The translations under genes and the position numbers were made by a program. This document shows positions 43,193-54,707 of a stretch of DNA of 64,000 bases, piece by piece. Source of the stretch: an uncultured Bacteroidota bacterium (GTDB taxonomy: Bacteria; Bacteroidota; Bacteroidia; Flavobacteriales; Flavobacteriaceae); contig CABYIO010000001.1 of assembly GCA_902519075.1 (NCBI GenBank), positions 51,856 through 115,855 on the forward strand, read 5' to 3'. The notes beneath the pieces are model-generated. The model ran no database searches. It worked only from the letters and a program-made list of their open reading frames with translations, and was not told the DNA's origin. How positions within the stretch are numbered: the first letter of the stretch is position 1; each line of letters begins with the position of its first letter.

Positions 43193-44508
43193 TGATTAAA
43201 AGTAATGTAAAATATACGCCTTTCAAGATTAAAGATACTAATCAGGCTAAATGGGGAAAAGAAGAGATTAAACTAGCGGAAGCTGAAATGCCAGGTTTAA
43301 TGGCCTTAAGGTCAGAATACAGAAAAAATAAACCTTTAAAAGGAGCAAGAATTGCTGGATGTCTTCACATGACTATTCAAACGGCAGTCTTAATTGAAAC
43401 TTTGATTGAGCTTGGTGCTGAAGTCACTTGGAGTTCATGTAATATATTTTCGACCCAGGATCATGCAGCAGCAGCAATTGCAGCAGCAGGAGTTCAGGTT
43501 TATGCTTGGAAAGGAATGAATGAAGAGGAATTTGACTGGTGCATTGAACAAACATTATTCTTCGGTGAAGAAAGAAAACCTCTTAATATGATTTTAGATG
43601 ATGGAGGAGATTTAACAAATATGGTTTTAGATAAATATCCAGAGCTTACTAAAAACATAAAAGGTTTGTCTGAAGAGACTACAACCGGTGTATTAAGATT
43701 ATTCGACAGAATGAGAGATGGAACATTAACTTTACCGGCAATTAATGTAAATGATTCAGTAACTAAAAGTAAGTTTGACAATAAATATGGCTGCAAGGAA
43801 AGTGCTGTAGATGCTGTCAGAAGAGCAACTGACATTATGATGGCAGGTAAGAGAGTTGTTGTATGTGGTTATGGGGATGTTGGAAAAGGAACTGCAGCAT
43901 CTTTTAAATCAGCAGGTAGTATTGTCACCGTTACAGAAATAGATCCCATTTGTGCTTTACAAGCAGCAATGGATGGATATGAGGTTAAAAAGCTTGAAAC
44001 AGTGATAGATAATTCAGATTTAATTATAACAGCTACCGGCAACAGAGATATTGTAAAGGATATCCATTTTAAATCTATGAAGGATAAAGCAATAGTTTGT
44101 AATATCGGTCATTTTGATAATGAAATAGATATGGCTTGGTTAAATAAAAATTATGGTCATACTAAAAAAGAAATAAAACCCCAGGTAGATTTATACACTG
44201 TTAACGGTAATGATATTGTGGTATTAGCAGAGGGTAGGTTGGTTAATCTTGGTTGCGCAACAGGACACCCAAGTTTTGTCATGAGCAATTCTTTTACTAA
44301 TCAAGTTTTAGCCCAAATTGAACTTTGGAACCATTCGTCAAAATATGAAAACAAGGTTTATACATTACCTAAACACTTAGATGAAAAAGTTGCAAAGTTG
44401 CATCTTGAAAAATTAGGTGTAGAGCTTACTACACTTGACGATATTCAGTCTAAATATATTGGAGTAGATAAAGAAGGTCCTTATAAGTCTGATGATTACA
44501 GATATTAG
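43192..44508 (+). CDS. ahcY: Adenosylhomocysteinase
   Basis: [91 protein letters not shown], terminal PYKSDDYRY. Confidence 0.97.
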
Positions 44509-44567
44509 ACATTGTAATTCAGATTAATTTCATTTTAAATACACGTTTTATATTTAATTTAATGTAA

Positions 44568-44609
44568 TAAGTACTTTTTGTACTTAAAAATAAGTACTTT
44601 TGTTACTTA
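44568..44609. promoter_or_regulatory. Twin palindromic operator overlapping the upstream edge of the wHTH regulator gene
   Basis: TAAGTAC-TTTTT-GTACTTA (44568-44586) and TAAGTA-CTTTTGT-TACTTA (44591-44609), each 19 bp, centres 23 bp apart, ending 5 bp before ATG 44615. Confidence 0.75.
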
Positions 44610-44614
44610 ATATT

Positions 44615-45127
44615 ATGCTAGGTTCATTAATTACATCTAAAACAAGGCTACGGATGCTTATTAAATTCTTTATTAGTGCTGCTAATAATGGATATCTAAA
44701 TGGTCTTGCCAACGAATTCAACGAATCTACCAATTCAATAAGAAAGGAATTAAATAATCTTTCCAGCGCTGGATACCTTCTTAAATCAAAAGAAAACAAC
44801 AGGATTGTTTATAATGCTAATACATCTCACCCAATGTTCGAAGTTTTACAAAAGATTGTAAGACAACATTTGGGTATAGAGGATATTGTTGAAACTGTGA
44901 TTGATAGAATTGGAGATGTAGATCAAATTGCTTTGACCGGAGAATATGCAGAGGGAATAGATAGTGGAAATATTGAGATAATTATTAATGGTCCAGATGT
45001 TAATAAAGATTATTTGAATAACATTAAACCAAAAATCAAAAAGAAAATTGGAAGAGAAGTAAGTTTCCTCTTAAATCAAAAACTAGATTTAAACGCAATT
45101 ATTCTTTACAAAAAAACAACTAAATGA
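44615..45127 (+). CDS. Winged-HTH transcriptional regulator with C-terminal degenerate nucleotidyltransferase-like domain
   Basis: LANEFNESTNSIRKELNNLSSAGYLLKSKENNRIVYNAN is wHTH-like; IALTGEYAEGIDSGNIEIIINGPDV resembles the MNT motif GSxARGxxxxxSDIDLxV with catalytic Asp lost. Confidence 0.8.
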   Translation: MLGSLITSKTRLRMLIKFFISAANNGYLNGLANEFNESTNSIRKELNNLSSAGYLLKSKENNRIVYNANTSHPMFEVLQKIVRQHLGIEDIVETVIDRIGDVDQIALTGEYAEGIDSGNIEIIINGPDVNKDYLNNIKPKIKKKIGREVSFLLNQKLDLNAIILYKKTTK

Positions 45128-45585
45128 ATTGGTATGTAATACACACAAAACCAAGAGGGGAGAAAAAAGCTGAGGAACAGTTATTGTCTTTGGGAATTAA
45201 TGCTTATTGTCCAACCCGAAAAGAAATTAGGCTTTGGAGTGATCGTAAAAAAAGAATTCAAGTTCCGGTACTGCCTTCAATGATTTTAGTAAATATTGAT
45301 GAAAAAGATGTTAACAGAGTTTTTGAATGTCCAGGAGTTGTAAGGTATATGTTTTGGCTAGGAAAAAGGGCGGTAGTTAGGCAATCAGAAGTTGATATTT
45401 TAAAAAAATATTTAAATGGAGATCATAATTTTATAAACAGTGAACTTTCAGATATTAAAGTTGGTGATAATTTTAGTTTATCATCTTTTAATAACGAAAA
45501 AGGAATTATAAATAGAATTTCAAATAATAATATTTGGATTTATTTGGAATCTATTGGATACAGTATTAAGCTAAAATTAGCTTAA
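45124..45585 (+). CDS. NusG-like antiterminator, UpxY/RfaH-type, heading the polysaccharide locus
   Basis: MNWYVIHTKPRGEKKAEEQLLSLGINAYCPTRKEIRLWSDRKKRIQVPVLPSMILVNI is a NusG N-terminal domain; KOW-like C-terminus KVGDNFSLSSFNNEKGIINRI. Confidence 0.9.
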   Translation: MNWYVIHTKPRGEKKAEEQLLSLGINAYCPTRKEIRLWSDRKKRIQVPVLPSMILVNIDEKDVNRVFECPGVVRYMFWLGKRAVVRQSEVDILKKYLNGDHNFINSELSDIKVGDNFSLSSFNNEKGIINRISNNNIWIYLESIGYSIKLKLA

Positions 45586-45644
45586 TATATACTAAACTAG
45601 TATTATTTTTGTTAGTCATAATTGTGACTGACGTCGGCGAAGCC
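45564..45644. promoter_or_regulatory. Palindrome-rich leader between the antiterminator gene and the first polysaccharide gene
   Basis: TATTAAGCTAA-AA-TTAGCTTAATA (45564-45587), TTAGTCA-taattg-TGACTGA (45612-45631), GACGTC (45630-45635), GGC-GAA-GCC (45636-45644). Confidence 0.6.
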
Positions 45645-45658
45645 ATAAAAAAAGTTGT

Positions 45659-46780
45659 ATGAAAAAAATTAATATTCAAATGGTTGATTTAATGGGTCAA
45701 TACACAAAAATCAAGAATGAAATTGATGCAAATATTATATCATCTATTGAATCTGGTCGATATGTAAATGGACCGATAGTTAAGCAGTTTTCAGAAAATC
45801 TTTCATCTTATTTAAATGTACGGAACGTTATACCATGTGCTAATGGTACTGATGCATTACAAATAGCATTTATGGCTTTAGGTTTAAAACCAGGTGACGA
45901 AATAATATGTCCATCATGGACATATATTGCAACTGCAGAGGCAGCTGCTATATTAGGAATAAAAGTTATTTTCTGCGATGTAGATTTAAATACTTTTAAC
46001 ACGCAAGCAGATTTAATTGAACCACATATTAACGACAAAACAAAAGCCATAGTTCCCGTTCATTTGTATGGGCAATCTTGTGATATGTATTCTGTTATTA
46101 AGCTTGCTGAAAAGTATAAGCTTAAAATTATTGAGGATAATGCTCAAGCAATAGGTTGTAAATATACTCTTCCAAACGGAGATGTAAAATATACTGGAAC
46201 ATTGGGTGATATAGGAACAACATCATTTTATCCTTCAAAAAACCTTGGTTGTTATGGTGATGGCGGTGCAATTTTCACAAACGATGACATCCTTGCAGAA
46301 AAAATTAAAATGATTGTAAATCATGGTGAAAAAATTAAATACCACCATGAAATTGTTGGTTGTAATTCTAGATTAGATTCTATTCAGGCTGAAATTTTAA
46401 ATGTAAAGTTAAAATATTTAGATAATTATAATTCAAGCAGAAAAATAATGGCTAATAATTATAATTTAGCATTTGAAGAAATTGATGAAATTCAAATACC
46501 AAAAATTATTTCAAGCTCTGAGCACGTATATCACCAATATACTTTAAGAGTTTTAAATGGCAGAAGAGATCACCTAAAAACTTATTTAAATGATTTAGGA
46601 ATATCATCAATGATTTATTATCCGATTCCAATTCACAAACAAAAACCATATAGAAATAATCAAGTTTTAGAAAATACTGATATTCTTTCTAATGAAGTTA
46701 TTTCTTTACCAATGCACACTGAATTAGAAAACTCTAATCAGGACTTTATTATTGATAATTTGATAAAATTTTTTAAATGA
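45659..46780 (+). CDS. DegT/DnrJ/EryC1/StrS-family PLP aminotransferase
   Basis: IPCANGTDALQIAFMALGLKPGDEIICPSWTYIATAEAAAILG, IIEDNAQAIGCKY, TTSFYPSKNLGCYGDGGAIFTND, NSRLDSIQAEIL. Confidence 0.95.
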   Translation: MKKINIQMVDLMGQYTKIKNEIDANIISSIESGRYVNGPIVKQFSENLSSYLNVRNVIPCANGTDALQIAFMALGLKPGDEIICPSWTYIATAEAAAILGIKVIFCDVDLNTFNTQADLIEPHINDKTKAIVPVHLYGQSCDMYSVIKLAEKYKLKIIEDNAQAIGCKYTLPNGDVKYTGTLGDIGTTSFYPSKNLGCYGDGGAIFTNDDILAEKIKMIVNHGEKIKYHHEIVGCNSRLDSIQAEILNVKLKYLDNYNSSRKIMANNYNLAFEEIDEIQIPKIISSSEHVYHQYTLRVLNGRRDHLKTYLNDLGISSMIYYPIPIHKQKPYRNNQVLENTDILSNEVISLPMHTELENSNQDFIIDNLIKFFK

Positions 46781-48162
46781 AAATAAAAAATATTTGTTGT
46801 ATAGGCGCAGGCTATGTTGGAGGCCCTACAATGTCGATTATTGCTCACAAAAATCCAAATATTAAAGTTAATGTTGTGGATATGAATGCCGATAAAATTT
46901 CAGCATGGAATTCTAAAGACTTAGATAATTTACCTGTCTATGAGCCAGGTTTATCAAAAGTTGTGAAAGAGGCAAGAGGTAGAAATTTATTTTTTTCTAA
47001 TGATATAAATAAATATATTGATCAGGCTGATATGATATTTATTTCGGTAAATACCCCAACAAAGACATCTGGAGAAGGGATGGGTTATGCAGCAGATTTA
47101 AAATATATTGAAGCTTGCGCAAAACAAATTGCAGAGGTTTCAAAAACAGATAAAATAATTGTAGAAAAATCGACAGTTCCTGTAAGAACATCAGAAAAAA
47201 TTAGACAAATTCTAAAATTAAATAATAGTCATGTTGATTTTCAAATTCTATCTAATCCTGAATTTCTTGCAGAAGGAACAGCTATGAGAGATTTAGAAAT
47301 TCCTGACAGAGTTCTGATAGGAGGAGATAAAACACCAGACGGTCAAAAAGCGATAGAATCTTTAGTGAAAATTTATACCTCCTGGGTTCCTAGAAAAAAT
47401 ATTCTCACAACTAACTTATGGTCTTCAGAATTATCCAAATTAACCGCCAATGCATTTTTAGCTCAAAGAATATCTTCAATTAATTCTTTATCGGAGCTTT
47501 GTGAAGAAACCGGAGCAGATATTGAAGAAGTTTCAAAGGCAATTGGAATGGATTCAAGAATAGGTAGCAGTTTCTTGAAATCATCTGTCGGGTTTGGTGG
47601 AAGTTGTTTTCAAAAGGACATATTGAATTTGGTTTACATTGCAAGAACGCTAGGGCTTGAAAAAGTTGCTGACTATTGGGAACAAATACTAATTATTAAT
47701 GAACACCAAAGAAATAGATTTTCATCAAAGATTATTGATTTTATTAAAAAAGAAAACTTGGAACCTGAAGTGTTAATGCTTGGTTGGGCTTTTAAAAAAA
47801 ACACAAATGATTCTAGAGAATCAGCATCAATATATGTGACAAATAATTTAATAAATAATAGTATTAAAGTTGATATTTATGACCCAAAGGTTAAGGAATA
47901 TCAGGTTAATTTTGATTTATCAAGTTTGAATCCTGATTATGATGCATCATTAGTGAATTATATTGATAATCCCTTTATAAATATTTCAAGCTATAATACT
48001 GTAGTGATAACTACGGAGTGGGATGAATTTAAAGATTTTGACTGGAAGACTGTTTATAATAACATAAAAAAACCAGCCTATATTTTTGATGGTAGAAACA
48101 TCTTAAAAAGTGAAATAATAAAAAAAATTGGATTTAATTATTTAGGGCTTGGAAGAAATTAA
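46777..48162 (+). CDS. ugd: UDP-glucose 6-dehydrogenase
   Basis: ICCIGAGYVGGPTMSIIAHKNPNIKVNVVDMN, NLPVYEPGLSKVVKEARGRNLFFS, LSNPEFLAEGTAMRDLEIPDRVLIGG, KSSVGFGGSCFQKDILNLVYI; followed by a UDP-glucuronate decarboxylase-like gene. Confidence 0.92.
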   Translation: MKIKNICCIGAGYVGGPTMSIIAHKNPNIKVNVVDMNADKISAWNSKDLDNLPVYEPGLSKVVKEARGRNLFFSNDINKYIDQADMIFISVNTPTKTSGEGMGYAADLKYIEACAKQIAEVSKTDKIIVEKSTVPVRTSEKIRQILKLNNSHVDFQILSNPEFLAEGTAMRDLEIPDRVLIGGDKTPDGQKAIESLVKIYTSWVPRKNILTTNLWSSELSKLTANAFLAQRISSINSLSELCEETGADIEEVSKAIGMDSRIGSSFLKSSVGFGGSCFQKDILNLVYIARTLGLEKVADYWEQILIINEHQRNRFSSKIIDFIKKENLEPEVLMLGWAFKKNTNDSRESASIYVTNNLINNSIKVDIYDPKVKEYQVNFDLSSLNPDYDASLVNYIDNPFINISSYNTVVITTEWDEFKDFDWKTVYNNIKKPAYIFDGRNILKSEIIKKIGFNYLGLGRN

Positions 48163-49108
48163 GAAAAAAAATATACTGGTTACTGGAGGTGCAGGTTTTA
48201 TTGGATCTCACTTATGTAAGGTCTTAGTTAACTTAGGTAATTATGTAATTTGTTTAGATAATTTATTTACAGGCTCAATAAATAATATTTCAGATTTAAG
48301 AGATAATGTAAATTTTGAATTTGTTAATCATGATATAACAGAGCCTTATTTTAGGGACAATATAGATGAAATATATAATTTAGCATGTCCTGCATCACCA
48401 AAACATTATCAATATAATCCGATTAAAACTGTTAAAACTTGTACAATTGGTGTGATTAATATGCTAGGTTTAGCAAAAAAAAATAATGCTAAAATTCTTC
48501 AGGCAAGCACCAGTGAAGTTTACGGGGATCCAAATGTACATCCACAGGATGAAAGATATAATGGCAATGTTAACCCTGTAGGATTGAGATCATGCTATGA
48601 TGAGGGAAAAAGATGTTCTGAGACTTTATTTATGGATTATCATAGAGAGCATAATCTGAAAATAAAAATTATAAGAATATTTAACACCTTCGGCCCAAAT
48701 ATGGCAAAAAACGATGGTAGAGTTATTTCAAATTTTGTAATGCAAGCTATTAGAAATGAAGAAATAACAATTTATGGGGATGGTAGTCAAACAAGAAGTT
48801 TCCTATATGTTGATGATTTGATTGATGCCATGATTAAAATGATGAATGCCAATAATAATTTCATAGGACCGATCAACATAGGTAATCCACATGAAATCTC
48901 AATGAATAAATTAGCATCTACAATTCTGAGATTGACAAATTCTAAATCTCAATTTATATACAGAGATCTTCCTGAGGATGATCCTAAAAGAAGAAATCCC
49001 GATATTAACTTAGCAAAAAACAAATTGAATTGGACCCCTTTCTGTAGTTTGGAGGTAGGTTTATCAAATACCATTAATTATTTTAAAAAAATAAATGAAA
49101 TCAATTAA
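48149..49108 (+). CDS. UDP-glucuronate decarboxylase (UXS-like SDR)
   Basis: ILVTGGAGFIGSHLCKVLVNLGNYVICLDNLFTGS, YNLACPASPKHYQYNPIKTVKTCTIGVINMLGLAKK, STSEVYGDPNVHPQDERYNGNVNPVGLRSCYDEGKRCSETLFMDYHR. Confidence 0.93.
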   Translation: MEEIKKKNILVTGGAGFIGSHLCKVLVNLGNYVICLDNLFTGSINNISDLRDNVNFEFVNHDITEPYFRDNIDEIYNLACPASPKHYQYNPIKTVKTCTIGVINMLGLAKKNNAKILQASTSEVYGDPNVHPQDERYNGNVNPVGLRSCYDEGKRCSETLFMDYHREHNLKIKIIRIFNTFGPNMAKNDGRVISNFVMQAIRNEEITIYGDGSQTRSFLYVDDLIDAMIKMMNANNNFIGPINIGNPHEISMNKLASTILRLTNSKSQFIYRDLPEDDPKRRNPDINLAKNKLNWTPFCSLEVGLSNTINYFKKINEIN

Positions 49109-49976
49109 AGGAATAATATTAGCTGGAGGTACTGGTTCAAGATTATATCCATTAACTCTTGGAACTTCAAAGCAATTATTACCAGTCTATGACAAGCCAA
49201 TGATATATTATCCTTTATCTGTTTTAATGCAAGCAGAAATTAAGGATGTTCTAATTATCTCATCTGAGCATGATTTACCAAAGTTTAAAAAATTACTTGG
49301 AGACGGCTCGAAGTTAGGAATTAAAATTTCCTATAAAGTTCAATTTGAACCAAACGGAATCGCTGAATCATTTATTATTGGTCAAGATTTTATTTGTGAT
49401 GATAATGTTTGTTTGATATTGGGGGATAATATTTTTCACGGAGACGAATTTATTTCAAATATTAACACTGCTAAAATAGACTTATCTAATGGATATTCAT
49501 CAATTTTTGGGGTTTCAGTTCCAAATCCAGAAAGCTATGGAGTCATAGAATTTGATGATAAAAACAACATTATTGATATCGCTGAAAAACCTGATTTTGC
49601 AAAAAGTAATATTATTGTTTCTGGATTATATTTTTATACTAATGATGTTGTAAAATTTGCAAAGAAGCTAAAGCCCAGTGAAAGAGGAGAAAAAGAAATC
49701 ACTGATATTAACAACCTTTATTTATCATCAAAAAAATTAAAACTAATACGATTAAAATCTAGTATATCGTGGTTTGATACCGGAACATATAGTTCTTTAA
49801 TTCAAGCCTCAAAATATTTTGAAAATTATGAGAAAAAATCAGGGCAAAAGGCAGCATGTATTGAAGAAATAGCTTATAATATGGGTTTCATTGACAACAG
49901 TCAATTAAATAAAATAGCAAATTCAATGCATAATAGTGAGTATGGAAATTATTTGTTAAAATTGACACTGAAATGA
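49095..49976 (+). CDS. rfbA: Glucose-1-phosphate thymidylyltransferase
   Basis: KGIILAGGTGSRLYPLTLGTSKQLLPVYDKPMIYYPLSVLMQAEIKDVLIIS, ILGDNIFHGDEF, WFDTGTYSSLIQAS. Confidence 0.96.
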   Translation: MKSIKGIILAGGTGSRLYPLTLGTSKQLLPVYDKPMIYYPLSVLMQAEIKDVLIISSEHDLPKFKKLLGDGSKLGIKISYKVQFEPNGIAESFIIGQDFICDDNVCLILGDNIFHGDEFISNINTAKIDLSNGYSSIFGVSVPNPESYGVIEFDDKNNIIDIAEKPDFAKSNIIVSGLYFYTNDVVKFAKKLKPSERGEKEITDINNLYLSSKKLKLIRLKSSISWFDTGTYSSLIQASKYFENYEKKSGQKAACIEEIAYNMGFIDNSQLNKIANSMHNSEYGNYLLKLTLK

Positions 49977-50509
49977 ACTTAACAAAAACAATTTTTAAAG
50001 ATTTAATTATAATAAAACATAATATTCATGTGGATAATAGAGGTTATTTTAAAGAAAGTTTTTTGAAAGAAAAGCTTGAAAATTTAATTAATTATAGTCT
50101 AGAATTTTGTCAAGAAAATAGTGTAAAATCTTATCTAAATGTATTAAGAGGATTACATTATCAAAAACAACCCTATTCTCAATCCAAGTTAGTCTCTGTA
50201 AGTTTAGGTAAAATATTAGATGTTGCAGTTGACATCAGAAAAGAGTCAGAAAATTACGGTAAATATTTTTCTTATATTTTATCTTCTGACAAACATGAGT
50301 CATTGTTTATTCCAAAAGGATTTGCTCACGGATATCTTACCCTAAGTGATTCAGCCATTATTAATTATCAGGTTGATAATTATTATAATCCTGAGGCCGA
50401 GGAAGGTATTCCTTATGATGATGATCTTTTGAAAATTGATTGGGGTGTTGAAAAGAGTAAATTAATCATTTCAAAAAAGGATCAAAATTTTAAACCTTTC
50501 AAATGGTAA
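49973..50509 (+). CDS. rfbC: dTDP-4-dehydrorhamnose 3,5-epimerase
   Basis: DNRGYFKESFLKEKL, FCQENSVKSYLNVLRGLHYQKQPYSQSKLVSVSLGKILDVAVDIRKES, FIPKGFAHGYLTLSDSA. Confidence 0.95.
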   Translation: MNLTKTIFKDLIIIKHNIHVDNRGYFKESFLKEKLENLINYSLEFCQENSVKSYLNVLRGLHYQKQPYSQSKLVSVSLGKILDVAVDIRKESENYGKYFSYILSSDKHESLFIPKGFAHGYLTLSDSAIINYQVDNYYNPEAEEGIPYDDDLLKIDWGVEKSKLIISKKDQNFKPFKW

Positions 50510-51381
50510 TTAGTAAAAAAATATTAATCACTGGTTCAAAAGGTCAACTAGGAAGCTCATTTAAAAAAATTTCAAAAGCTTACAATTATAATTTTATTTT
50601 CACGGATAAAAGTGATTTAGATATAACCAATTTTGACTTGTTAAAAGAATTCTTTAAAAATAATAAAATAGATACTTTAATAAATTGTGTTGCTTACACT
50701 GATGTAGACAGTGCAGAAATTAAAAAAAGTATTTGTAATATGGTTAACTACAAAGCTATGGATTTTTTATCCGGATTATGTGAAAAATTTAATATACAAC
50801 TAATTCACATATCCACTGATTACGTTTTTGACGGAAAGAAAGATTCGCCGTATAATGAATCTGATTTTACTCAGCCGTTAAATAATTATGGTTTATCAAA
50901 ATTACAAGGTGAAAAAGCAGTTATGAATCATAAACTAAAAAATTCCATAATTATTAGGACTTCCCTTTTGTACAATGATAATGGCGATAGTTTTGTAAGA
51001 AAAATAATTAATAAAATTATCAAAGGTGAAAGTATAGAAGTTGTAAATGATCAATTTTCATCACCAACATATGCAGACGATTTAGCGCATGCTATTTTGA
51101 AAATTATTCCATTAATTAGTAACAATATCACTGAAATATATCATTACTCAAACAAAGGCCATTGTTCTAGATATGATTTAGCGATAAAAATAAATGAATT
51201 TATAAATGGTGATTCAAAAATTAGTTCGACAAAATCAAAAAATGAAACCACAGTTAGACCTTTATATTCGGTGCTTGAAACTTCAAAAATCATTAATAAA
51301 TTTAATTTAAGACTAAGACATTGGGAGGAAGCTTTGGAAGAATTTATTTCTAATCAAAATTTTATATTAAATGAAATTTAG
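50503..51381 (+). CDS. rfbD: dTDP-4-dehydrorhamnose reductase
   Basis: ILITGSKGQLGSSFKKIS, NCVAYTDVDSAE, HISTDYVFDGKKDSPYNESDFTQPLNNYGLSKLQGEKAV, IIRTSLLY. Confidence 0.95.
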   Translation: MVISKKILITGSKGQLGSSFKKISKAYNYNFIFTDKSDLDITNFDLLKEFFKNNKIDTLINCVAYTDVDSAEIKKSICNMVNYKAMDFLSGLCEKFNIQLIHISTDYVFDGKKDSPYNESDFTQPLNNYGLSKLQGEKAVMNHKLKNSIIIRTSLLYNDNGDSFVRKIINKIIKGESIEVVNDQFSSPTYADDLAHAILKIIPLISNNITEIYHYSNKGHCSRYDLAIKINEFINGDSKISSTKSKNETTVRPLYSVLETSKIINKFNLRLRHWEEALEEFISNQNFILNEI

Positions 51382-52366
51382 ATGTAATAATCTTTTAGTA
51401 ACCGGTGGATCAGGATTTATAGGATCTAATTTTATTGAATATATTTTTAAAAAATATAAAAATATCAATATCTATAATTTAGATAATTTGACTTATGCTG
51501 GGGATGTTAACAACACTCTAATGTTTAAGGACAATAAAAATTATAAATTTATCAAGGGTAGTATTTGTGATACCGAATTAATTCACGACATTTTTAATCA
51601 ACACAAAATTGATGGTGTAATTAATTTTGCTGCAGAAAGCCACGTAGATAACTCAATAGTTAACCCAAATATTTTTATTGAAACAAATGTTAAGGGGGTT
51701 TTAGAGTTAATGAAAGTAGCATGTAGATTTTGGATGGATAAAAATTTCAATTACAAAAATGAATTTCTAAATTCTAGATTTCATCAAATATCCACAGACG
51801 AAATATATGGAAGCATAAATTTTGGAAGCTTTAAAGAGAATCATCAATACAGGCCAAACTCACCCTATTCTGCTTCTAAAGCCTCTGCAGATATGTTGGT
51901 TAGAAGTTTTAATATAACTTATGGTTTAAACACCTCTATTTCTGTTTCATCAAATAATTTCGGAAAGAATCAAAATAATGAAAAATTTATTCCAAAAATT
52001 ATAGAATGTATTCGATCTAAATCAGAAATTCCTGTCTACGGAGATGGTAAAAATGTAAGGGATTGGGTCTTTGTAAACGATAACTGCAGAGCAATTGATT
52101 TAATTTTTAATAATGGAAAATCTGGAGAACAATATAACGTAGGTGCTAATAACGAAATAACTAATTTGGATTTGATTAAAATTATTTCTGAGATTATGTC
52201 TCTTGATTTTAAAATAGGTTTTGTTGAGGACAGAAGAGGTCATGACCTAAGATATAGCTTAGATACAACAAAAATTAAGTCAAAATTGAATTGGTATCCA
52301 ATAAATGACTTTAGAACTTCTTTGGAGAAATATATTAACAACCTAATTGATCATGAGGGTATTTAA
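51371..52366 (+). CDS. rfbB: dTDP-glucose 4,6-dehydratase
   Basis: LLVTGGSGFIGSNFIEYIF, NLDNLTYAGDVNNT, INFAAESHVDNSIVNPNIFIETNVKGVLEL, QISTDEIYGSI, SPYSASKASADMLVRSFNITYGLN. Confidence 0.95.
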   Translation: MKFRCNNLLVTGGSGFIGSNFIEYIFKKYKNINIYNLDNLTYAGDVNNTLMFKDNKNYKFIKGSICDTELIHDIFNQHKIDGVINFAAESHVDNSIVNPNIFIETNVKGVLELMKVACRFWMDKNFNYKNEFLNSRFHQISTDEIYGSINFGSFKENHQYRPNSPYSASKASADMLVRSFNITYGLNTSISVSSNNFGKNQNNEKFIPKIIECIRSKSEIPVYGDGKNVRDWVFVNDNCRAIDLIFNNGKSGEQYNVGANNEITNLDLIKIISEIMSLDFKIGFVEDRRGHDLRYSLDTTKIKSKLNWYPINDFRTSLEKYINNLIDHEGI

Positions 52367-52778
52367 TTATAATTTTTCACTAAGACATTTAGCAAAAACT
52401 ATAACCTGGAGAATTGTTGCTACCTTTGATACCATAATTATTGCCTATTTTATCTCTGGAAGCTTAGAGCTTGGTATTAAGATAGGCTCAATTGAAATAC
52501 TTACAAAAATGATTTTATACTACATTCATGAAAGATTATGGTTTAAGTCAAAGTTTATAAATCATAGAACACGTCATATACTCAAAACATTTTCTTGGCG
52601 CTTAATCGGTACAATGGATACAATCATAATTTCATTATTTATTATTGGAAGTTTTTCAGCGGGTCTAAAGATTGGTTTCACAGAAACAATTACAAAAATG
52701 ATTTTATATTATTTACATGAAAAATTATGGTACAGAATTAACTTAGGGCTTGATACAAGAAAAAATTTAGTTAGATGA
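52347..52778 (+). CDS. Tandem DUF2061 membrane protein
   Basis: Two copies of a repeat: LAKTITWRIVATFDTIIIAYFISGSLELGIKIGSIEILTKMILYYIHERLWF and ILKTFSWRLIGTMDTIIISLFIIGSFSAGLKIGFTETITKMILYYLHEKLWY. Confidence 0.88.
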   Translation: MIMRVFNYNFSLRHLAKTITWRIVATFDTIIIAYFISGSLELGIKIGSIEILTKMILYYIHERLWFKSKFINHRTRHILKTFSWRLIGTMDTIIISLFIIGSFSAGLKIGFTETITKMILYYLHEKLWYRINLGLDTRKNLVR

Positions 52779-53578
52779 CTATTGATGAAAAATTAAAATT
52801 AGCGATTAGTGCAAGTTTAAAGGCTGCTATTCAGATAAAAAAAATTTATGAATCAGCTGAATTTGATATTGAATATAAAAAAGATAATTCACCATTGACA
52901 AAGGCTGATTTAGTATCAAATGAAATAATAAAAGCTGAACTTAAAAAATCAGAATTACCGATATTATCTGAAGAAGAAAAATCAATTGATTTTGATATTA
53001 GAAAAAACTGGTATGAGCTTTGGATCGTTGACCCAATTGATGGTACTAAAGAGTTTATTAAAAGAAATGGTGAGTTTACTGTGAATATAGCTTTAGTCAG
53101 GAATAAAGCTCCAATAATTGGTGTTATTTATGCACCTGCACTTAATACTCTTTATTTTTCGTCTGTTGAAATTGGATCATTTAAATTTGAAAATTTAGAT
53201 GTTAATAAATTTAACATCAATGAAATATTAAATTCTGCTTTAAAATTACCTATTGTCAGTGTAAATAAAATATACACAATTGTTGTTAGCAGATCTCATA
53301 TGTCTGAGGAAACTGACCTATATATAAAAAAAATAAAAAAATTGAAGGGTGAAATCAAGTTGATTTACTCTGGTAGTTCCTTAAAAATGTGTTTAGTTGC
53401 AGAAGGTAAAGCAGATGTTTATCCCCGTTTTGCCCCAACTATGGAATGGGATACTGCTGCCGGTCAGGCAATTTGTGAAGCTGCAAATTCCCAGTTTATA
53501 GACTTATCTACTAATGAAAGAATTACATATAATAGGAAAAATTTAACAAATAACTGGTTTATAGTTAAAAAAACTTAA
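52775..53578 (+). CDS. cysQ: 3'(2'),5'-bisphosphate nucleotidase
   Basis: NSPLTKADLVSNEII, PILSEEEKSIDFDIRKNWYELWIVDPIDGTKEFIKRNGEFTVNIALV, SGSSLKMCLVAEGKADVYPRFAPTMEWDTAAGQAI. Confidence 0.95.
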   Translation: MTIDEKLKLAISASLKAAIQIKKIYESAEFDIEYKKDNSPLTKADLVSNEIIKAELKKSELPILSEEEKSIDFDIRKNWYELWIVDPIDGTKEFIKRNGEFTVNIALVRNKAPIIGVIYAPALNTLYFSSVEIGSFKFENLDVNKFNINEILNSALKLPIVSVNKIYTIVVSRSHMSEETDLYIKKIKKLKGEIKLIYSGSSLKMCLVAEGKADVYPRFAPTMEWDTAAGQAICEAANSQFIDLSTNERITYNRKNLTNNWFIVKKT

Positions 53579-53582
53579 AAAA

Positions 53583-54707
53583 TTGAAAAGAAAAATATTG
53601 TTAATATTTGGAACTAGACCCGAAGCCATAAAAATGGCTCCATTATATAAAGAGTTTAAAAAACATAATAAGGTTTTTAATACCAAGATATGTGTTACAG
53701 CACAACATAGGGAAATGCTTGATCAGGTCTTGGATTTTTTTAATATTACTCCTGACTATGATTTAAATATTATGAAGCCAAATCAAAATTTATTTGGATT
53801 AACAGCTGATATAATTAAAAATTTAAAATGTGTTTTAGAGGAGTTTAATCCTGAATTCGTTTTTGTTCACGGAGATACGACAACAACAATGGCAAGTAGT
53901 ATCGCATCATTCTATGCTGGCGCAAAGGTCTGTCACATTGAAGCAGGGCTTAGAACAAATAATAAATTATCACCATTTCCTGAAGAAATTAATAGACAGG
54001 TAGCCTCAAGAATTTGTGATTATCATTTTGCCCCTACGGAAAAATCTAAAGAAAATTTATTAAAAGAAAATATAAAAAAGAGTTCAGTTTTGGTAACCGG
54101 TAATACTGTGATAGATGCTTTATTTAAAACTTTAGAAATTATTGATAAAAATCCTACTTCAAAAATAAAAGAATTGCATAAAATCATTAAAAATCAAAAA
54201 TTAATTTTAGTAACTGGACATCGAAGAGAAAACCATGGAAAAGGTTTTGAAAATATTTGTAAAGCATTAAATAAAATTGCGTCAAATAACAAAGACTATT
54301 TAATAATTTATCCAGTACACTTGAATCCTAAGGTTGTCAATCCGGTTAAAAGAATTTTAGGAAAAACTGAAAATATTATATTAATCGAACCACTAAAATA
54401 CCCCGATTTTATTTGGTTAATGAATAAATCAAAAATAATTATTACAGACAGCGGTGGAGTTCAAGAAGAAGCTCCCAGCCTTGGCAAACCAGTTATAGTC
54501 ATACGTGAAACAACTGAACGACCTGAAGCAGTCAGTGCTGGTACTGTTATTTTAGTTGGTACAAATACTGAATTAATTATAAATAAAGCATGTGAACTTT
54601 TAAACAATTCAAGACTTTATAAAAAAATGAGCGAATTACACAATCCATATGGAGATGGTAAAGCCTGTAAAAGAATCGTTAATTTCATAAATAATTTATC
54701 TCAATGA
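53583..54707 (+). CDS. wecB: UDP-N-acetylglucosamine 2-epimerase (non-hydrolyzing)
   Basis: LLIFGTRPEAIKMAPLYKEF, CVTAQHREMLDQVLDFF, FVHGDTTTTMASSIASFYAGAKVCHIEAGLRT, FPEEINRQ, TDSGGVQEEAPSLGKPVIVIRETTERPEAVSAG. Confidence 0.96.
   Translation: MKRKILLIFGTRPEAIKMAPLYKEFKKHNKVFNTKICVTAQHREMLDQVLDFFNITPDYDLNIMKPNQNLFGLTADIIKNLKCVLEEFNPEFVFVHGDTTTTMASSIASFYAGAKVCHIEAGLRTNNKLSPFPEEINRQVASRICDYHFAPTEKSKENLLKENIKKSSVLVTGNTVIDALFKTLEIIDKNPTSKIKELHKIIKNQKLILVTGHRRENHGKGFENICKALNKIASNNKDYLIIYPVHLNPKVVNPVKRILGKTENIILIEPLKYPDFIWLMNKSKIIITDSGGVQEEAPSLGKPVIVIRETTERPEAVSAGTVILVGTNTELIINKACELLNNSRLYKKMSELHNPYGDGKACKRIVNFINNLSQ

Follow-up and report, generated by a model that had tools for sequence, protein, structure and literature searches.

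Within the window, by which we mean the whole 64,000-nucleotide stretch of DNA that was analysed, a gene for a two-domain regulator is preceded by two palindromes and followed on the same strand by an antiterminator gene and a long run of nucleotide-sugar genes. The features of this locus, in window coordinates, are as follows.

44568 to 44586, no strand: upstream operator palindrome TAAGTACTTTTTGTACTTA (TAAGTAC-TTTTT-GTACTTA, arms of 7 + 7 bp, 5-bp centre)
44591 to 44609, no strand: downstream operator palindrome TAAGTACTTTTGTTACTTA (TAAGTA-CTTTTGT-TACTTA, arms of 6 + 6 bp, 7-bp centre)
44595 to 44602, plus strand: predicted -7 box TACTTTTG, inside the downstream operator (consensus TAHHTTTG, PMC6847099)
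44615 to 45127, plus strand: regulator gene, 170 aa, with a winged helix (residues ~1-75) and a degenerate MNT nucleotidyltransferase (NTase) domain (~86-170)
44726 to 44755, plus strand: codons 38-47, STNxIRxELN, the conserved wHTH helix
44939 to 44992, plus strand: codons 109-126, degenerate NTase motif GEYAEGIDSGNIEIIING, which in intact relatives reads GSxAKG...SDIDLMVIG
45124 to 45585, plus strand: UpxY-family antiterminator (a NusG paralogue; NF033644, 104.2 bits against a cut-off of 100), whose ATG overlaps the regulator TGA
45623 to 45646, plus strand: ops-like element TGTGACTGACGTCGGCGAAGCCAT, after UpxY and 12 bp before the first sugar gene, with the core GGCGAAGCCATA at 45636-45647
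45659 to 54707, plus strand: nucleotide-sugar genes expected to be under regulator/UpxY control, assigned to one operon from their tight same-strand spacing

The nucleotide-sugar genes encode a DegT aminotransferase, a UDP-sugar dehydrogenase, epimerases, an NTP_transferase, a dTDP-sugar isomerase, RmlD, a DUF2061 protein, a member of the inositol-phosphate phosphatase family and a UDP-GlcNAc 2-epimerase.

The fold of the regulator was visible only with a family profile and an isolated C-terminal model; queried alone, the protein had nothing but weak HTH matches in Pfam, NCBIfam and the PDB, sub-threshold in the first two. AlphaFold2, supplied with 27 sequences, predicted a winged helix (residues 1-75) joined by a pair of linking helices to an alpha/beta domain (pLDDT 88.8, and 83.5 for the C-terminal model). 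Foldseek matched the full-length model mainly to wHTH proteins (IclR, ArsR, MarR), which together with the sub-threshold HTH matches points to a winged-helix DNA-binding domain like that of wHTH autorepressors. The protein did not score as an ArsR/SmtB metalloregulator (NCBIfam SdpR, 21.4 of 100 bits; HTH_metalloreg, 13.6 of 55). The top Foldseek matches of the C-terminal model alone were MntA/MNT antitoxins and NTases (7bxo, E 5e-4, TM 0.66; also 2rff), and a profile of 87 family members matched the NTase 2rff in the PDB over the C-terminal domain (E 5e-4). PF01909 was matched by two family members, at best with 7e-6. Both domains proposed in the initial annotation, an N-terminal winged helix and a C-terminal nucleotidyltransferase fold, were thus recovered by structure prediction, Foldseek and profile search. 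Residues S38, N40, R43, E45, L46 and N47 of the wHTH helix are invariant in 87 relatives, and the STNxIRxELN helix is likely to be that of DNA recognition. Conservation is weaker in the MNT domain, where the four invariant residues are all glycines, than in the winged helix.

The residues TGEYAEGIDSGNIEI, quoted in the initial annotation as a degenerate NTase motif, are present in the regulator, and the degeneracy extends to its relatives. Asp1 is absent from all 87 aligned sequences, and the phosphate-binding Ser of the GS pair is kept in three and replaced by Asp, Glu, Lys or Asn in 77. At the Asp2 position 62 sequences have Asp and 18 have Glu, the window protein being one of the latter; at the presumed Asp3 position none has Asp (0/87), and Arg or Lys is usual. 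The catalytic motif, GS...DxD with a third Asp, is therefore not present, and judged by these residues the site is catalytically dead family-wide. Of the catalytic Asp pair described as apparently lost, Asp1 is indeed gone throughout, but Asp2 is still Asp in most relatives or else commonly Glu. D121 pairs with an Arg or Lys at position 150 in 56 of the 87, and a salt bridge here could stand in for the metal site. Without the phosphate-binding Ser and the metal site, the domain is unlikely to bind Mg-NTP in the canonical way, and the initial suggestion that it senses a nucleotide or nucleotide sugar finds no support.

The regulator gene was found in 77 of 395 Bacteroidia genomes, about one fifth of those sampled and nearly always as a single copy, and in a phylum-wide sample 38 of 248 genomes had it, three of these as weak matches; 27 of the relatives came from GTDB genomes. 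No phage relatives of the regulator were found.

The two palindromes upstream of the gene have the sequences and coordinates first claimed for them: both are 19 bp long, they start 23 bp apart, and the second ends 5 bp before the ATG at 44615. The AT-rich window holds 50 exact 6-N7-6 inverted repeats, so a lone palindrome has little meaning and is not significant. The twin half-site copies in register are, however, unique in the draft genome (71.6% complete) with up to two mismatches allowed. Taken with conservation in relatives, this twin, genome-unique arrangement shows the palindromes to be a real feature and a likely operator.

Conservation was counted in the 150 bp upstream of the regulator at 96 loci with at least 100 bp of upstream sequence. 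RAGTA-N7-TACTY was exact in 72 of these relatives (0.1 in shuffles) and present with at most one mismatch in 87 (3.5 in shuffles), bearing out the expectation that the palindromes would recur upstream of orthologues. With exact half-sites, every spacing other than N7 was seen at most once. The family consensus, aTTGAGTA-N7-TACTCAAt, also holds in Melioribacteraceae (L027, L028). Nine of the 96 loci had no recognisable operator within 150 bp upstream; at some of these, such as G060 and G055, it lies further upstream. A single operator is the family norm and the twin arrangement a speciality of a marine clade, with palindromes 23 bp apart at ten loci (the window and nine close marine relatives) and 25 bp apart at two (L014 and L017). 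In one Flavobacteriaceae MAG (L022:3001-3243), a frame change truncates the regulator ORF after 80 aa and an operator-like site persists.

Whole-genome scans found TGAGTA-N7-TACTCA in 26 of 35 regulator-bearing genomes; 21 of their 32 sites, assigned by coordinate comparison, lie within ~260 bp upstream of the regulator, and 35 genomes without the regulator had five sites. In the window's own draft genome the full-length motif occurs at the regulator locus only. Relaxed matches elsewhere in that genome number two, one inside a coding region and the other, TAAGTAATAAATTTACTCA (G000:C9:6153-6171, L042), ~30 bp before the probable rlmH start and divergent from a PriA-like gene; the latter may be due to chance, and with one site intragenic and the other before rlmH a genome-wide regulon in this organism was rejected. 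Another genome, G034 (L159, L160), has six identical GGGACTGACCTGGCGAAGC copies scattered genome-wide, perhaps a dispersed repeat; the two inspected do not clearly precede sugar genes. In one genus (G095, G127, G267; L153-L158), pairs of operator and ops-like element precede export and sugar operons that lack a regulator gene, with genes identified from their protein starts as UDP-sugar dehydrogenase, Wza/Wzc-like and GMD/fucose-synthase-like. Because the operator precedes such regulator-less operons, the regulator can probably act in trans.

The Bacteroidota -7 box is TAHHTTTG, with the transcription start 4-5 nt downstream (PMC6847099). The predicted start in the window is accordingly at ~44607, inside the second palindrome, which leaves a leader of 7-8 nt. 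A -7 box lies in register inside the operator at 32 of 87 family sites and 0-35 bp upstream of it at 13 more; over half of the operator sites have no overlapping exact TAnnTTTG box. The placement of the box and predicted start inside the operator argues for autorepression via promoter occlusion. Of the autoregulated repressor initially proposed, the conserved operator at the gene's own promoter stands as observed, and repression we infer from the operator covering the -7 box.

UpxY lies directly 3' of the regulator at 45 of 97 loci and within the examined stretch at 54; it is absent from that stretch at the other 43, so UpxY is a frequent but non-obligatory partner, and an obligatory neighbourhood was rejected. 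At other loci the genes that come next encode a UDP-sugar dehydrogenase, an RmlB-like protein, a cytidylyltransferase or an ABC-2 exporter. The proposal that the regulator controls the antiterminator and polysaccharide genes gains support from the ATG/TGA overlap, the adjoining UpxY at 45 loci and the trans operators before export operons.

The last 12 nt of the ops-like element (GGCGAAGCYGTG) align with ops of E. coli (GGCGGTAGCGTG); the two agree in the GG of positions 1-2, positions 11-12 read TG or TA, and the middle differs. The GG...TG ends of E. coli ops define the pause (PMC5995543). With up to four mismatches, the pattern TGKGACTGA-N3-GGCGAAGCYGTG occurs at 58 of 97 loci on the sense strand only, with none on the opposite strand of the 97; a stricter pattern occurs at 54 of 97 and in no shuffled sequence. 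A version with a 4-nt spacer is found at about ten marine-clade loci, the window included. Its place varies: it follows either the regulator or UpxY, or lies between the operator and the regulator gene. A class-wide scan at two mismatches was too permissive for counting. Because variants occur 3' of UpxY in three regulator-less genomes (L172, L173, L175) and housekeeping NusG loci give noise only, the element tracks UpxY and not the repressor. It is a candidate for the site at which UpxY loads. Some UpxY loci have no copy nearby. Its single-strand fold is weak (z -0.9), as expected of a 3-bp hairpin, and Rfam gave nothing above threshold over 44400-45800. Neither the literature searched nor Rfam yielded an earlier description of the element, although one may have been published elsewhere.

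Together these results suggest the following scheme. It builds on what was observed, namely the conservation and specificity of the operator, the fold, the missing catalytic residues and the gene order; DNA binding, repression, cooperativity, UpxY recruitment and any ligand are what we infer. A regulator dimer would bind RAGTA-N7-TACTY through its winged helix and cover the -7 box and predicted start of its own promoter. Repression would hold down the transcript of the regulator, of UpxY and, through UpxY, of the long sugar operon. The MNT domain, devoid of catalysis, would serve for dimerisation, for signal reading, or for both. Where operators come in pairs 23 bp apart, as they do in the marine clade, two dimers would be expected to bind with cooperativity. 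The ops-like element would probably load UpxY onto RNA polymerase, giving a second checkpoint at elongation. We consider it quite probable that the regulator is a dedicated autorepressor of the polysaccharide operon with such a UpxY-mediated second checkpoint.

What the dead domain does within such a repressor can be read in two ways, each of which we hold tentatively. In the model of the initial annotation it is an effector domain, and the repressor is released by an anionic precursor that the operon makes, be it a nucleotide sugar, a nucleotide or something else. The complete MNT fold is retained across the phylum, the D116/S117 loop is largely kept, position 147 is always and position 150 (Asp3 in NTases) mostly Arg or Lys, the operons make nucleotide sugars, and there is a precedent in Bacteroides AraR, whose retired Nudix domain senses a sugar (PMC4666351). 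Such a role is conceivable, but the loss of the Ser, Asp1 and Asp3 described above speaks against canonical Mg-NTP binding, and invariant residues that are glycines, with no polar pocket, lend little weight to a specific ligand. Alternatively the regulator may be a purely homeostatic autorepressor, its dead MNT domain a ligand-free dimerisation module in a circuit that keeps UpxY constantly low. This would suit autoregulation from single or twin operators, a one-promoter regulon in most genomes, the lack of a conserved polar pocket and a D121-R/K150 pairing that may structurally replace the metal site; against it, one genus has operators in trans upstream of its export operons, which suggests more than homeostasis. 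We regard this reading, too, as conceivable.

The remaining alternatives concern the nature of the protein itself. That it activates its promoter is unlikely: a palindrome does not tell activation from repression and the additional operator of the marine clade lies upstream of the -7 box, but the site kept in all clades overlaps that box or sits just downstream of it, which is the position of a repressor. Its closest folds are MNT antitoxins, distant proteobacterial homologues with an intact motif precede a small unnamed gene, and AbiEi is a wHTH autorepressor acting on inverted repeats (PMC3985639), all of which would fit the antitoxin of a toxin-antitoxin pair of the HEPN/MNT or AbiE type. 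This is nevertheless highly improbable, since the next gene is UpxY in the window and at 45 of 97 loci and elsewhere often a sugar gene, the regulator of the window has neither a HEPN gene nor another NTase gene beside it, and AMPylation is not expected without Asp1; with no adjacent toxin gene, and with UpxY or a sugar gene next where examined, the toxin-antitoxin reading was rejected.

The preferred reading is that of an autorepressor in which a wHTH is joined to a retired enzyme domain, and its family appears to be a widespread and so far undescribed type of repressor that switches itself along with polysaccharide genes. A broader version, which we think rather doubtful as a whole, is a phylum-wide two-checkpoint switch in which the dead wHTH-NTase senses a polysaccharide precursor and gates initiation at its dedicated palindrome, and UpxY from the same transcript loads at the ops-like element and licenses elongation. 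About half of Bacteroidota encode divergent paralogues of NusG, of which UpxY is one (PMC7593976). For the control of their expression and for the place where they load outside B. fragilis, we propose a repressor with an exact operator and a candidate loading element. The regulator also appears to exemplify clearly how an enzyme fold was retired to become a transcription factor, and relatives in which the motif is intact are available for comparison.

Those relatives are proteobacterial wHTH proteins annotated 'nucleotidyltransferase domain-containing protein' (for example WP_041674343 and WP_175506280), distant homologues which have the same two domains and align over their full length at ~20% identity. 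Unlike the regulator, they mostly keep the motif (GSxAxx...SD[IV]D, intact in 4/5), have a different operator (their own CCCANNNTGGG palindrome, CCCA-N3-TGGG, close upstream in 4/5) and are followed by a small gene and no UpxY. They are encoded on plasmids (L195-L199), and the small gene that follows is unnamed and has no Pfam match, which makes a possible uncharacterised two-gene system. Because these homologues retain an intact GS...SDID, the enzyme seems to have been retired in the regulator's branch, and because they have an upstream palindrome of their own, autoregulation looks ancestral; the architecture, and probably autoregulation, would then predate the loss of catalysis.

Among characterised systems, the MntA/MNT antitoxins of HEPN/MNT systems have the C-terminal fold and sequence profile in common with the regulator, which differs in its fused winged helix, dead active site, link to polysaccharide genes and lack of a visible HEPN partner. 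AbiEi, which binds inverted repeats at its own promoter (PMC3985639), is likewise a wHTH autorepressor in an NTase-linked operon, but the AbiE NTase is a separate toxin, whereas the regulator carries its NTase, dead, as part of itself. NrtR and AraR also join a wHTH to a retired enzyme sensor in Bacteroidota, although the enzyme fold is a different one (Nudix), with arabinose as the ligand of Bacteroides AraR (PMC4666351). In capsule control by UpxY and RfaH-ops (PMC7819879, PMC7593976, PMC5995543), the UpxY gene lies in its own polysaccharide operon, as it does here; B. fragilis loci pair UpxY with UpxZ, whereas in the window UpxY is preceded by a predicted DNA-binding autorepressor.
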